DNA of 64,000 bases from Salinibacter sp. 10B. GTDB taxonomy: Bacteria > Bacteroidota > Rhodothermia > Rhodothermales > Salinibacteraceae. Of this stretch, positions 8,373 through 60,429 are shown one piece after another. The first letter of the stretch is position 1; every line of letters begins with the position of its first letter. A program made the translations under genes and the position numbers. The stretch spans positions 1,386,301-1,450,300 of the forward strand of contig NZ_MQWC01000004.1 of NCBI RefSeq assembly GCF_002954405.1. Direction: 5' to 3'. Under the pieces are notes generated by a model. That model was not told where the DNA came from. It saw only the letters and a list, made by a program, of their open reading frames with translations, and ran no database searches.

Positions 8373-9293
8373 TTATGCTGCAGAAGAAAGGCGATACGCC
8401 CGTCGAAGCGCCCCAACCACGGGTTCCTTTTCCAGAAATGCCACCGAACACGCCGGGAAATGCTCCCCAAGGATTCGCTGTAGAATGTCAGCGTAGTGGC
8501 TGTTCTGAACCATTCCCCCGAGCATCGTGATGCGCGGCTCCAATCCCTCCACTCCGTCCAACACCCAGCCCACCTGTTCGGCGAGATTGGATGCCTGGGT
8601 GACGAGAATGTCCGACGCAACCGCATCGTCGTTCGCCGCCGCTTCTACCACCAGTGGCGCAACCGACTGCACCTTGAAATCCTCCTGATACACCCGGTGA
8701 ATGAGGCATTCTCGGTCGGTCACCCCGCAGTGTTCGCGTAGACGAGAACGAAGATCCGTGGTGTCCCCCCCATCATAATCTTCCGCGACCGCCCGCAAAC
8801 CGGCCTGTCCGATGGCGTATCCACTTCCCGGATCGCCCAGAATGTGTCCCCATCCCCCCGCTCGCAAGAGGGTTTCCTCCTGGCCCCGCGCCAGTACCAC
8901 CGACCCGGTTCCCGCAATCAAAATGAGGCCACTTCCAAGATCGTAGGCCGCATCAAGCGCGATAAGGGCGTCGTGAACCACCTCGACGTGAACCGTCGTC
9001 TCCGGTCCGGCGAACGCCTGACGCACAGCATCGGCGAGAACCTCCTGCTCGCCGGACCGCCCCGCCCCAGACACGCCTGCACACACCGACAAACGGTCGA
9101 TCGGAGGAGCGTCTTGAATTGCATCGTGAATGAGTTCGACGAGAATCTCGGCGGCCCGGTCCATGCCAACCCGGTTGGGATTCGCCCCCTCTCCGCGGCA
9201 CTCAATAGACGACGCGCGTCCGTCGATTTCGCCTCTAAGAAGCGTCTTCGACCCTCCGGAATCGAGCCCAACGACCAGATGTGTTGCAGCCAC
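8373..9293 (-). CDS. BadF/BcrA-type ATPase, probable N-acetylglucosamine kinase
   Basis: About 306 aa, an ASKHA-fold sugar kinase that would convert GlcNAc to GlcNAc-6-P in the cytoplasm. The phosphate-1 loop is VVGLDSGGSKT at the N terminus; phosphate-2 is LIAGTGSVV in mid-protein, followed by GGWGHILGDPGSGYAIG; an adenosine motif MLGGMVQNS lies near the C terminus. Many BadF-family members are benzoyl-CoA reductase subunits or activases, but this single-domain length and the adjacent nagB point to the GlcNAc-kinase branch. I took GTG 9293; GTG 9311 is possible, and the open frame continues further without family similarity. It is divergent from nagB across a promoter region carrying LacI-type operators. 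Confidence 0.82.
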   Translation of the reverse strand: MAATHLVVGLDSGGSKTLLRGEIDGRASSIECRGEGANPNRVGMDRAAEILVELIHDAIQDAPPIDRLSVCAGVSGAGRSGEQEVLADAVRQAFAGPETTVHVEVVHDALIALDAAYDLGSGLILIAGTGSVVLARGQEETLLRAGGWGHILGDPGSGYAIGQAGLRAVAEDYDGGDTTDLRSRLREHCGVTDRECLIHRVYQEDFKVQSVAPLVVEAAANDDAVASDILVTQASNLAEQVGWVLDGVEGLEPRITMLGGMVQNSHYADILQRILGEHFPACSVAFLEKEPVVGALRRAYRLSSAA

Positions 9294-56196: not shown

Positions 56197-57036
56197 CTAC
56201 GACGACTGACCGTCGGAGTTTAGAGCATCGGCGGGCACCTGCTGGCCGTCGCGACTAAATGGCGCCTCGGTGGCAATGGCCTCCTGCGCTCCATGCCCGC
56301 TTGGAATCCAGCGCAGGAGCTCCAGTCGCCCGTCGAGGTGCTCGACCAGGGCCGTGCAGCTTTCCACCCAGTCGCCGGTATTCACGTACTGCGTGCCGTT
56401 GATCGAGCGGAGACGAGGGTGATGGATGTGCCCGCAGATCACGCCATCGTACTCCTTCTCGGCGACTTCCATCGCCGCCGTTTCCTCAAACTCCTCGATG
56501 TATTGCAGCGCCCGCTGCGTCGAGTGCTTGAGATAACTGGAAAGCGACCAGTAGGGGAGATTGAACAGGCGACGCACCCGATTAAACCAGCGATCCACCT
56601 TCATGACCCCTACGTACGCCCATCCTCCCAAGAATTCAAGCCACTTGGCGTGACGCACGACCCCCTCGAATTCATCCCCGTGTACGACCACGAACCGGCG
56701 TCCGTCGGCGGTGGTGTGGATGGCCTTCTTCTGAATCGTGATGCCCCCAAGTTGGAGCCCCGGAAAGTCTCGAGCCACCTCGTCGTGATTGCCGGGAATG
56801 TAGGTGACATTCGTACTGTTGGCCTTCTGTAGGAGGCCCTGAATCACGTCGTTGTGGGCGGAAGGCCAGTACCAGGAGCGTTGCAACGCCCAGCCGTCAA
56901 AAATATCGCCCACGAGGTAGTAGCGATCGGCCTCGTGGTGACGAAGAAAATCGAGGAGAAAGTCCGCCTTTGCCTGAGGAGTCCCTAGATGAACGTCTGA
57001 AATCCAGATCGTACGGTAATGGGTTGTCGGCTCCAT
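56197..57036 (-). CDS. PlcP-like metallophosphoesterase (second copy)
   Basis: A 279-aa cytoplasmic phosphoesterase. Metal motifs: WISDVHLGT, VGDIFDGWALQRSWYWP, IPGNHDE, VVVHGDEFEGVVRHAKW and CGHIHHP, then NTGDWVESCTALVEH. This is the pattern of PlcP, the Sinorhizobium-type phospholipase C that releases diacylglycerol under phosphate starvation. LpxH-type UDP-diacylglucosamine hydrolases share the metal motifs, so annotation as LpxH-like is the alternative. The btaAB context supports PlcP. It lies 244 bp after its paralogue. Confidence 0.8.
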   Translation of the reverse strand: MEPTTHYRTIWISDVHLGTPQAKADFLLDFLRHHEADRYYLVGDIFDGWALQRSWYWPSAHNDVIQGLLQKANSTNVTYIPGNHDEVARDFPGLQLGGITIQKKAIHTTADGRRFVVVHGDEFEGVVRHAKWLEFLGGWAYVGVMKVDRWFNRVRRLFNLPYWSLSSYLKHSTQRALQYIEEFEETAAMEVAEKEYDGVICGHIHHPRLRSINGTQYVNTGDWVESCTALVEHLDGRLELLRWIPSGHGAQEAIATEAPFSRDGQQVPADALNSDGQSS

Positions 57037-57280
57037 GTGCCGGACTATCTGAGCAAGCAGCAATTCGAGGAAAAGCTGCCCCTCAACCCTCGGGGCGATA
57101 CCCGGACGGGGCCATGCACGGTCCGAAAGATGTACCGTACGTTCTGCCCCTCCTTTCCGCTATTTTCGGGGATTGATGATAGCTTCATTCTGGAAAAATG
57201 CCCTTTTCAGCCAAGCGCGGTGCAGTTCCGCCCTGCGGAAACACAGGAGGGTCCTCTGAACAGACTGAACGAGGGCGCCT

Positions 57281-58120
57281 TCACGCTGACGCCCCGATCT
57301 GAGGCGACGGTGACCAGTCGTTCTTGGGTGCTCCATCTCCCGCCGTGCCTGCAGCATGTGGGGGCGACGATGCCCCCTCTGGGACGGGCGTCCATTGTTG
57401 AAGCGCAAGCCGTCCATCCATGTGCTCGACTAAAGCCGTACAATTTTCCACCCAGTCGCCTGTGTTGGCGTAGGTAACCCCATCGATGGGCCGGAGCTCC
57501 GGCACGTGGATGTGTCCGCAGATGACCCCGTCTACATCCTCTCGCTGGACACGCTGCACGACGGCCTGCTCAAAATCCGCAATGTACTGCACAGCGCGCT
57601 TCGTGGTGGTTTTTGCGGCGGCCGCCAGTGACCAGTAGGGCTTGTTCATCCATCGACGCACCCGGTTGACGTGGCGATTGAGCGTGAGAAGAGTCTGATA
57701 CGCCCATCCTCCGAGTTTGGAGAGCCAGCGGGCGTGCCGCACTACTCCGTCGAACTCATCTCCGTGAAGCACCAGAAGACGCTGCCCGTCTGCGGTCGTG
57801 TGGATCACATTCGATCGAATCGTGATGCCTCCGAGCTGGAGCCCGGGAAACTGACGGGCCGCCTCATCGTGGTTGCCGGGAATATAAATCATCTCTGCTT
57901 CTCCCGCTCGTTCCAGCAAGATTTGCAGGAGCTCGTTGTGAGAGGATGGCCAGTACCAGGAGCGCTGCAAGGCCCATCCATCCACGATATCACCAACGAG
58001 GTAATACCGCTCCGCTTTGTGATGCTCCAGAAAGTCGATCACTCCGTTGGCCTTCGACGCTCGCGTGCCGAGGTGAACGTCTGAGATCCAGATCGTGCGG
58101 TATCGTCGAAGCACGGGCAT
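57281..58120 (-). CDS. PlcP-like metallophosphoesterase (first copy)
   Basis: A 279-aa protein, closely similar to the next copy along most of its length (WISDVHLGT, VGDIVDGWALQRSWYWPSSHN, IPGNHDEAARQFPGLQLGG, HGDEFDGVVRHARW, CGHIHVPEL, NTGDWVENCTALVEHMDGRL). They differ most at the C terminus, which here is Pro/Ser/Ala-rich and probably disordered. It begins 54 bp after btaB, so it is likely co-transcribed. Expected role: removing head groups from phospholipids to supply diacylglycerol for BtaA. Confidence 0.82.
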   Translation of the reverse strand: MPVLRRYRTIWISDVHLGTRASKANGVIDFLEHHKAERYYLVGDIVDGWALQRSWYWPSSHNELLQILLERAGEAEMIYIPGNHDEAARQFPGLQLGGITIRSNVIHTTADGQRLLVLHGDEFDGVVRHARWLSKLGGWAYQTLLTLNRHVNRVRRWMNKPYWSLAAAAKTTTKRAVQYIADFEQAVVQRVQREDVDGVICGHIHVPELRPIDGVTYANTGDWVENCTALVEHMDGRLALQQWTPVPEGASSPPHAAGTAGDGAPKNDWSPSPQIGASA

Positions 58121-58174
58121 AGAGCAATGATGCGGGAAAGGACGGATACTCAGCAGCCCCCTACGGCCACGGAG

Positions 58175-58954
58175 TTAATCGACAATTGTGTGAAGCCCCT
58201 CAAATCGTTTCGACTCAGAAGCAGATGAAACCGAAGGGACCTCCATTCCCAGTCCATCGAACGCCGAGGCGGACACAGCTCCCGATACACGAATCGTGGA
58301 CCAGTAGGCGTACCGGTAAGCAACGGGGGCCACGGTACAGGTAACCCCATCGACCCCGTCGAGGCGACGGAGCGCGCGGATAAGATCGGGCCGGGGATAC
58401 ACATCGAAAAGCGCCAACCAACGCTGCAAAACCATAGCGGTCCACTCCGGAAGATCGGCCTGATCCCAAAAGTCGACGATGTGGATCCGTCCGCCCGGCG
58501 CCAGATGAGCAAGGGCAGAGCCGAGTGCCGCCGTCCAGTCGGGAATCATCGACAAAACGTACGAGAAAAAGATGACATCGAAGTCCCGCTCGACCCCAAA
58601 CTGCTCTCGGGAATCAAGCGCCTGTGCCAGTCCGTGGCCAAGCGTAATATCGTCGAGACAGCCCTCCCGCTCCATCTTGGCCCGAGCTGTCGCGAGCATC
58701 GAAAGGGAGGCATCCAGTCCGTACAGTGTATGCTGCGGAGCGTGTTGATCGAGCATGCGTAAATTGCGAGCGGTGCCGCACCCAATTTCCAACACATTGC
58801 TACTCGGCTGTTCAGCAATGGCCCTCAACATTCGGTCTCGCCCAAGCAAGTAGTACCGGCGCGACCAGTCATACACGTGGCGCGTCCACCGGTACATTCG
58901 ATTCATTTTCCGTACTGGGTCTTCAATGGAGGACGAGAGGGGCATTTTCGACAT
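58175..58954 (-). CDS. btaB: BtaB-like N-methyltransferase (betaine lipid synthesis)
   Basis: A 259-aa SAM-dependent methyltransferase. The N-terminal segment MNRMYRWTRHVYDWSRRYYLLGRDRML is typical of BtaB; the SAM loop is VLEIGCGTARNL, followed by LYGLDASLSMLATA and APGGRIHIVDFWDQADLP. It would methylate diacylglyceryl-homoserine three times to DGTS. I chose ATG 58954. GTG 59065, overlapping the btaA stop by one base, would add 37 residues including an in-frame 6-residue tandem duplication, so either start is possible. It follows btaA and precedes plcP-like genes. Confidence 0.85.
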   Translation of the reverse strand: MSKMPLSSSIEDPVRKMNRMYRWTRHVYDWSRRYYLLGRDRMLRAIAEQPSSNVLEIGCGTARNLRMLDQHAPQHTLYGLDASLSMLATARAKMEREGCLDDITLGHGLAQALDSREQFGVERDFDVIFFSYVLSMIPDWTAALGSALAHLAPGGRIHIVDFWDQADLPEWTAMVLQRWLALFDVYPRPDLIRALRRLDGVDGVTCTVAPVAYRYAYWSTIRVSGAVSASAFDGLGMEVPSVSSASESKRFEGLHTIVD

Positions 58955-58977
58955 GGGTTGGGCCGTGGCGTGGCCTT

Positions 58978-59013
58978 TGATGACGAACGAGAGTGTGATG
59001 ACGAACGAGAGTG
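58978..59013. repeat. Perfect 18-bp tandem duplication between btaA and btaB
   Basis: Two adjacent copies of TGATGACGAACGAGAGTG (58978-58995 and 58996-59013). The unit is 18 bp, so it stays in frame if the upstream btaB start is used. Confidence 0.85.
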
Positions 59014-59064
59014 GTTCCGAATAATCGGAAGCTTCCCGGGGCCGTGCGGTTGTCTTTCCACGCA

Positions 59065-60306
59065 CTAGCCGGTCAGCACATAGAGGTGAAACATGCCGTA
59101 GACCGCCGATCGGTCCTTTGCATGAAGCGCCTCTGACCGGTCACGCTCGTACGTGAATCGACTGCGCAGATCGGACGGCAGTGCCGGCTCGACCACTGAG
59201 TCGAGCCCAGCGGTACGGAAAATAATGCGGGCTCCCGGTTCCCCCACGCGGGCCAGTTCAGCCCAGAGCGCAGCAATGGCCTCCGGCTCCATCCAGTCCA
59301 TCGCGTCAAGTAGCACGAAGCTGTCGAAGCTGCTGTCGGGCTGATCCCGAAGGGCCTCCTGAACCGAAGCAATGCGCGTGTCCACCCGATCGAGGTCGTA
59401 CCGGAGTTGCCCGTAGTGTTCAGCGCGAAGGTAGGCTGGAAGCGCCTCCCGCTGGTCGGTATCGTACTGGCGCCCAAAGGCCTGCCAGGCGAAGTAATTG
59501 TCCGAGAGCGGAAAGCCGCACACCAATCGCTCCAGTCGTTTGCGGTAGAGATCGACGATCGACGTGTCGGCCGCAGTGGAAAGACTCTGGTACTGGCTCA
59601 GCGGGATGCCGAAGCTGTAGAGAGTGGCGGGCTGTCGTGCAATCCGTCGGACAAGAGAATGATCAAAAAACGGCGCTACACATTCCTCAAAGAACTCCCG
59701 CTGCTCCTCCAGATTGTCGGCCCGCAACAACTCGCTCGGCTCACGATCCTGTACCATCTGTGAGACCCACTGGGCCACGCCCTGAAAGCGCGCCAGCACC
59801 CCGTGCTTGTAAACACCGTGTTTGAAGGCCCGGATGCGCGGGCGTCGAAAGCCGCTCCAGGGACGCTTCTCCCAAAACTCTTGCGTCGTCGAATCGAGGT
59901 GCGGACGGATGTGCTCGTGATACGCCTCGATGTTCTCTTCGCCCTCTCCCTCGCCAAAGAACTGGAAGAAATGCTCGTGATCTGGAAGCTGCCGAAGAGC
60001 AGCCATCTTGAGCCGAGTGAGGGCCATATGGGCCATGTTTAAATCCACTGCCAAAATCTGCTCAGGCTCGTGAACGAGATAGTTGAGCACATTGCATCCG
60101 GCCGATGAAATGGTAAAAATTCGACTTGACTCGTCGAGGTGAAGGGCCGCTGCGTCCACTCGCGGATCCTCCCAGATCTGGGTGTACACGAGCCCCCGAA
60201 ACCACAGCGTGAAGAGCCGCTCCAGCAGTCCCTCTCGGGACACCCGGTGGTTTCGATGAACAGCGCGTTTTAGGCGATCGACCGTCGAGTCCGACATGGT
60301 GAGCAT
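59065..60306 (-). CDS. btaA: BtaA-like 3-amino-3-carboxypropyl transferase (betaine lipid synthesis)
   Basis: A 413-aa enzyme of the DUF3419/BtaA family, transferring the aminocarboxypropyl group of SAM to diacylglycerol to form diacylglyceryl-homoserine. Family segments: LVYTQIWEDPRVDAAAL, the SAM-binding ISSAGCNVLNYL followed by ILAVDLNMAHMALTRLKMAA, and FVLLDAMDWM with EPGARIIFRTAG near the C terminus. Length matches BtaA (about 400 aa). Its partner methyltransferase follows directly. ATG 60306 and ATG 60297 are both possible starts. Confidence 0.92.
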   Translation of the reverse strand: MLTMSDSTVDRLKRAVHRNHRVSREGLLERLFTLWFRGLVYTQIWEDPRVDAAALHLDESSRIFTISSAGCNVLNYLVHEPEQILAVDLNMAHMALTRLKMAALRQLPDHEHFFQFFGEGEGEENIEAYHEHIRPHLDSTTQEFWEKRPWSGFRRPRIRAFKHGVYKHGVLARFQGVAQWVSQMVQDREPSELLRADNLEEQREFFEECVAPFFDHSLVRRIARQPATLYSFGIPLSQYQSLSTAADTSIVDLYRKRLERLVCGFPLSDNYFAWQAFGRQYDTDQREALPAYLRAEHYGQLRYDLDRVDTRIASVQEALRDQPDSSFDSFVLLDAMDWMEPEAIAALWAELARVGEPGARIIFRTAGLDSVVEPALPSDLRSRFTYERDRSEALHAKDRSAVYGMFHLYVLTG

Positions 60307-60317
60307 CCGAGGGTCCG

Positions 60318-60330
60318 CGAACGAGAGTGG
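60318..60330. promoter_or_regulatory. 13-mer shared by the btaA and btaB upstream regions
   Basis: CGAACGAGAGTGG occurs 12 bp before btaA and again at 59002-59014 between btaA and btaB, inside the tandem repeat. It may be a regulatory site or a duplicated leader. Confidence 0.35.
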
Positions 60331-60429
60331 CGAGTCCGATTAGAGCCTGTGGCCACTCTCAAATGTAGAGCCGCGGCGTTATCTCGTGATTACGCCCGGA
60401 TTATCAGTGGATCACCTCTACTCGGACCG

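Follow-up and report, generated by a model that had tools for sequence, protein, structure and literature searches.

The window, a stretch of 64,000 nucleotides from Salinibacter sp. 10B (genome G000, 4.75 Mb in 10 contigs; window G000:C4:1386301-1450300), carries four adjacent genes on the minus strand: btaA (59065-60306), btaB (58175-58954), plcP1 (57281-58120) and plcP2 (56197-57036). We consider it likely that the first three form a PhoB-switched transcription unit that converts phospholipids to the betaine lipid diacylglyceryltrimethylhomoserine (DGTS), and that plcP2 is a resident gene outside this unit, probably phosphate-independent. Gene families, clades, synteny, and promoter repeats shared with pst genes are all direct observations. 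They lead us to predict the enzyme activities, PhoB binding, cotranscription and DGTS production that make up the proposed mechanism.

In that mechanism, btaA-btaB-plcP1 would act as a single phosphate-starvation transcription unit. When phosphate is exhausted, PhoB would occupy 11-bp direct repeats beside the btaA promoter (step 1). PlcP1 would then cut the phosphate-bearing head group off membrane phospholipids, releasing diacylglycerol (step 2). BtaA would add the homoserine moiety of S-adenosylmethionine to this diacylglycerol (step 3), and three methylations by BtaB would give phosphorus-free DGTS (step 4). The three-gene cassette would have come to adjoin the resident plcP2 in an ancestor of the window's sub-clade, with plcP2 probably expressed independently of phosphate.

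A first-pass annotation of this DNA had marked four open reading frames (ORFs) here, and all are present on the minus strand with small corrections of start. For plcP2 the likely start codon is the ATG at 57036, the TTG at 57063 being a mechanical ORF start, and btaB probably begins at the ATG at 58954, not at 59065. With these starts the gaps are 110 bp between btaA and btaB, 54 bp between btaB and plcP1, and 244 bp between plcP1 and plcP2.

BtaA and BtaB resemble known betaine-lipid proteins

BtaA, a predicted S-adenosylmethionine:diacylglycerol 3-amino-3-carboxypropyl transferase, matches the Pfam family DUF3419 (PF11899) with 349.9 bits (cut-off 28.2) over residues 33-409 of 413. It is 41.8% identical to the Sinorhizobium meliloti homologue, with 95% of the query covered. 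Directly downstream of S. meliloti btaA lies a methyltransferase gene. BtaB, a class I S-adenosylmethionine methyltransferase, is 36% identical over 239 amino acids to the product of that gene and is a predicted diacylglycerylhomoserine N-methyltransferase. The family score, the methyltransferase class and the S. meliloti homologues bear out the first-pass identification of the pair, which would be expected to produce DGTS. A search of the PDB with the BtaA profile matched no chain at E 0.1. In a quick BtaA tree (87 rows, SH-aLRT (Shimodaira-Hasegawa-like approximate likelihood ratio test) support only), the eight BtaAs of the window's family form one clade (98) within a branch common to Planctomycetota (95).

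The neighbourhood of btaA was surveyed at the 80 best BtaA loci, not all of them, in genome_contigs. A BtaB homologue lies downstream of btaA at 75 of them, and btaB is directly downstream at all eight loci of the family, window included. Six of the 80 show the full order btaA-btaB-plcP on one strand. Because of these two counts, the order is not a matter of chance. The six are the own record of genome G020, which belongs to the window's genus (L063), four Thiothrix loci and one gammaproteobacterium. A PlcP match lies within the flanks examined at 10 of the 80, including L063 and a weak match at L090 (25%); plcP is also placed upstream at L128 and L136 and on the opposite strand at L139.

btaA and the pst genes share a direct repeat

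Upstream of btaA stands a candidate Pho box (60378-60403, minus strand) made of three direct-repeat units, TAAT-N7-TAAT-N7-TAAC, with a period of 11 bp. The -7 consensus of Bacteroidota is TAnnTTTG. A candidate -7 promoter element, TACATTTG (60360-60367, minus strand), follows the last TAAC after 10 bp, in the arrangement TAAC-N10-TAnnTT. All eight btaA promoters of the family fit TAAT-N7-TAAT-N7-TAAC-N10-TA, with degenerate units in some and with TAAC and TA invariant in register. The two-unit form TAAY-N7-TAAY occurs within 300 bp upstream of six of the eight btaA genes, a count that 0 of 500 shuffles reached. Of the other spacings between 0 and 24, just 18 is found at more than one of the eight (5/8); it equals the distance from the first to the third unit.

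The same pair precedes pst genes. TAAY-N7-TAAY is present at 17 of 23 pst loci (one per genome), no other spacing between 0 and 24 is found at more than 2 of 23, and 0 of 500 shuffles reached the count of 17. Within the genus every pst locus has it (12/12), about 1000-1180 bp before the pstS motif, i.e. before the phoB-type gene, a position for which coordinates were checked in G000. In that genome the locus (L212) reads PhoB-type response regulator, then pstS-pstC-pstA-pstB-phoU, the names other than PhoU being read from translations. The complete TAAY-N7-TAAY-N7-TAAC pattern has a single occurrence in the 4.75 Mb genome, at btaA. TAAT-N7-TAAC has eight, and only those at btaA and at the phoB-type gene lie within 150 bp upstream of a called gene of the same strand (about 70-100 bp and about 45-60 bp from the start, respectively, the latter to the called start). 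The remaining six are within called genes, at least 400 bp away, or facing no called gene. A 49-column profile of the btaA site scores 51.4 at btaA, with 11.5 as the next best score in the window. What the phoB and btaA promoters have in common is the two-unit repeat only. The first-pass annotation had linked these genes to phosphate starvation, and the Pho-box-like repeats common to the btaA and pst promoters agree with it. They support phosphate control of btaA, with PhoB as the presumed ligand of the candidate box.

Several observations weigh against this interpretation. The repeat was chosen by eye from the btaA promoters, and noticed at phoB of G000, before any counting. Because the pst loci are related, with 12 of 23 belonging to a single genus, the shuffles exaggerate their independence. 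Outside the genus the repeat is found at 5 of 11 pst loci, about 215-360 bp before the pstS motif. Unlike the btaA repeat, that of phoB has no TA 10 bp downstream. TAAT-N7-TAAC is not over-represented in G000 (8 places, vs 21 for a reversed control pattern), and in the two phoU loci of that genome, L212 (phoB-pst) and L213, no site reaches a score of 8 with the 49-column profile. The btaA site of G023 is weak, with a leave-one-out score of 1.0, and a relaxed three-unit scan at btaA gave antisense matches at the same period in 4 of 8 cases.

Elsewhere in the family, plcP itself can be tied to phosphate genes. The repeat precedes plcP in G023, G025 and G026 (3 of 6). plcP stands tail-to-tail with phoU in G002, which has btaAB, and in G025 and G026, which do not (L058, L060 and L045; two genera), and the plcP-phoU stretch of G025 also holds pstS. 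Separately, three of the six exact genomic copies of CACTCTCGTTCG lie close to the starts of btaA and btaB (window 58984-59013 and 60318-60329). We rejected this element, present once before btaA and twice before btaB, as a regulatory box, as G017 and G020 lack it at matching positions (by eye).

The phosphoesterases group with PlcP

Both plcP products are calcineurin-like phosphoesterases (Metallophos, PF00149), and all five metallophosphoesterase motifs (DxH, GD, GNHD, HGD and GHxH) are found in each. E. coli LpxH belongs to the same family and has similar ligand motifs, with GNRD in place of GNHD. We therefore weighed whether the two proteins could be LpxH-type lipid A enzymes that merely adjoin btaAB. 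The window PlcPs are weakly similar to LpxH models, the best PDB sequence matches of plcP1 are solved LpxH structures, and the S. meliloti PlcP homologue is annotated 'UDP-2,3-diacylglucosamine diphosphatase'.

A phylogeny decides between the two. In a tree of 41 rows, 30 PlcP rows are split (support 97/98) from 10 LpxH-like rows of the family together with E. coli LpxH. The PlcP rows comprise both window copies, S. meliloti, Thiothrix, copies linked to btaAB or to a glycosyltransferase, and one Parabacteroides sequence. Omitted were 14 of the 24 LpxH-like family rows and L090, which has 25% identity and a very long branch, and 3 of the 32 plasmid records matched by the PlcP search were used. 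Both window proteins stand on the side of the S. meliloti homologue and the Thiothrix PlcPs, opposite E. coli LpxH. We infer that this S. meliloti protein is the characterised PlcP, because it is the sole PlcP place matched in that 3.7 Mb record, which is labelled pSymB but by its size suggests a chromosome.

The LpxH models (TIGR01854/NF003743) give the window PlcPs 33-44 bits, far under the cut-offs of 134-190 and like the 38-39 bits of the S. meliloti homologue, while E. coli LpxH scores 364-389 bits. The argument is carried by the tree, because the LpxH-like gene of G000 itself is also under the cut-offs, at 60-75 bits. Further, LpxC (PF03331) was found in none of the 27 genomes of the family, 14 high-quality ones included (controls positive 4/14), so a lipid A role for the window PlcPs is very unlikely. 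A separate LpxH-like gene is present in 24 of the 27 genomes. The LpxH explanation is close to refuted, and we give it next to no weight. The first-pass annotation had proposed phylogeny against LpxH as the check on its PlcP assignment, and the assignment holds. PlcP1 is by tree side and metal-ligand motifs a predicted phospholipase C-type phosphoesterase; the reaction expected of a PlcP, release of diacylglycerol from phosphatidylcholine or phosphatidylethanolamine, may be shared by PlcP2. The LpxH-like phosphoesterase (L003:1495-2247; G000:C4:4257146-4257853) is present in those 24 genomes despite LpxC being found in 0 of 27.

plcP2 is most likely a resident paralogue

PlcP is more widely distributed in the family than BtaA. 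There are 19 PlcP-type places across 15 of the 27 genomes, while BtaA is found in eight, and eight genomes have PlcP without BtaA. In G012, G015, G016 and G022, plcP2 lies between a DUF4340 gene and an HMGL-like gene, with no btaAB there. In G000, G017 and G020 this junction is occupied by btaA-btaB-plcP1, which lies between the DUF4340 gene and plcP2. These three genomes form one clade (100/99) in an RpoB tree of 23 of the 27 family genomes. G012 carries its cassette at a different site (L044). Other genes occupy the corresponding site of G016, and two of the flanking genes are neighbours in G011. The plcP1 of the G012 cassette (L044, about 8476-9283) has an in-frame TAA while the plcP2 of that genome is open; a sequencing error is possible.

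The two copies also have separate lineages. plcP1 (four genomes) and plcP2 (nine genomes) form separate clades, with support of 86/99 and 98/99. They are 64% identical in the window. Between G000 and G020, plcP2 is 96% identical and plcP1 82%. Rough nonsynonymous-to-synonymous rate ratios (dN/dS) for this pair are 0.02 for plcP2 vs 0.08 for plcP1, with synonymous distances near saturation. Next to the active-site HGD, plcP2 has Glu in 9 of 9 genomes where 20 other compared PlcPs have Asp (HGDEFE vs HGDxFD; the Parabacteroides row was omitted here). The slower evolution and the substitution in plcP2 fit a separate role. The repeat found before btaA is absent upstream of plcP2 in all nine genus genomes, in strict or relaxed form, with the window plcP2 checked over 400 bp. 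The plcP1-plcP2 intergenic region (57037-57280, minus strand) is without the repeat and is partly similar, by eye, to the sequence upstream of plcP2 in G017 and G020.

On synteny, its own clade and the lack of the repeat, we judge plcP2 to be outside the cassette, most likely as a separately regulated resident paralogue and not as a recent tandem duplicate. plcP1 and plcP2 represent two older lineages, of which one has a phosphate-type promoter and the other does not.

Alternative explanations

The first-pass annotation had instead described a four-gene unit with a duplicated PlcP, a reading in which plcP was duplicated in tandem to feed BtaA more diacylglycerol. The adjacency of plcP1 and plcP2 on one strand and their 64% identity fit this, as do the metal-ligand motifs and the low rough dN/dS of both copies. 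The comparison with relatives, which have plcP2 at the same place without btaAB, speaks against it. In a topology test, forcing plcP1 together with plcP2 from the tandem strains and G019 lowers the log-likelihood by 48.6 units and is rejected (approximately unbiased test, p=3e-5). The 244-bp gap and the repeat count of 0/9 upstream of plcP2 are further points against it, and we regard the four-gene unit as unlikely. An older duplication at the base of the genus, followed by movement, is possible: grouping all plcP1 and plcP2 is not rejected by the same test (p=0.26), which counts against our account of plcP2. The linkage of plcP to btaAB is likewise imperfect. plcP directly follows btaB in five of the eight btaA genomes, but btaAB and plcP are non-adjacent in G004 (different contigs) and in G023. 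G001 shows no plcP, on a contig that ends soon after btaB, and several relatives are incomplete drafts.

Another explanation concerns the product. Instead of DGTS, BtaA and BtaB might make a related ether lipid carrying one or two methyl groups, or another amino-carboxypropyl lipid, constitutively and for salt adaptation. The hosts are presumably halophiles, BtaB shares only 36% identity with its S. meliloti counterpart, and btaAB is patchy in the family (8/27). Yet BtaA and its S. meliloti homologue share 42% identity over 95% of the query, the phosphate-type repeat is common to the pst genes, and plcP follows btaB directly in most of the genomes with btaA. We find this explanation quite improbable. 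For the two PlcPs we can offer a division of work, held tentatively and at somewhat less than even chances. plcP1 would be phosphate-switched and feed DGTS synthesis. plcP2, constitutive and with the changed residue beside HGD, would serve a second purpose, the turnover of phospholipids or of some other substrate, in cells seemingly without lipid A, the mobile cassette having come to lie beside a resident plcP.

Comparison with known clusters

In Phaeobacter sp. MED193, Sebastian et al. (PMC4796936) describe btaA and btaB downstream of plcP, and deletion of plcP abolished DGTS. Their account of plcP gene clusters includes putative Pho boxes, and btaAB and plcP of S. meliloti are described as PhoB-regulated (PMC3972451). 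A type 1 plcP-btaAB cluster is defined by the adjacency of plcP to btaA and btaB on one strand, and this is how plcP1 is placed. The window is like the Phaeobacter cluster in having PlcP beside BtaA and BtaB along with Pho-box-type signals. The window differs in its order, btaA-btaB-plcP where plcP comes first in Phaeobacter, and in its phylum. It also has an extra resident plcP and a TAAY repeat with an 11-bp period.

Gene order and strand are identical to those in Thiothrix (L107, L109, L120 and L138) and in the gammaproteobacterium (L111). However, BtaA is 45-46% identical to theirs and branches separately in the BtaA tree, and each of those loci has one plcP match in the flanks examined. 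S. meliloti has homologues of all three proteins (BtaA 42%, BtaB 36% and PlcP 49-54% identical), but in the record examined plcP lies about 0.39 Mb from btaAB.

Distribution and meaning

At E<=1e-30 the BtaA profile finds 34 of the 244 genomes of the window's class. Matches are strong (E<1e-200) only in the eight family members, the next being 7e-72, so the first-pass remark that the host lineage is unusual stands. Among the weaker DUF3419 loci we examined 23, from 22 of the 26 weaker genomes plus L012. A BtaB-like gene accompanies DUF3419 at 19 of these (27-36% identity), all from one other family (f16; L181-L196, L198, L200 and L201). Before these 19 divergent pairs the strict TAAY repeat has no peak at spacing 7 (3/19, and 6/19 at spacing 14). 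When the unit is relaxed to T[ACT]A[CT], 10 of the 19 have a triple with an 11-bp period upstream, against at most 1 of 19 for other periods (sense strand). Shuffles (n=300) gave a mean of 0.5 and at most 3 for this unit, which was chosen after the sequences had been seen. The f16 pairs are possibly a second amino- or betaine-lipid system. G020 also has a second, divergent DUF3419 protein (L012; G020:C61:4749-5810), with no BtaB match in the stretch examined.

The open-access titles and abstracts that were searched report no betaine lipids in the Salinivenus/Salinibacter-like lineage, which is weak evidence. Clusters of this kind are known in Proteobacteria; what is new here is the lineage, the corrected architecture and the candidate Pho box. 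The architecture corrects the tempting reading of the adjacent plcP genes as a recent duplicate pair. A candidate Pho box for the lineage makes the remaining phosphate regulon searchable. The cassette predicts that members of the Salinivenus/Salinibacter-like lineage would have betaine lipids under phosphate control.

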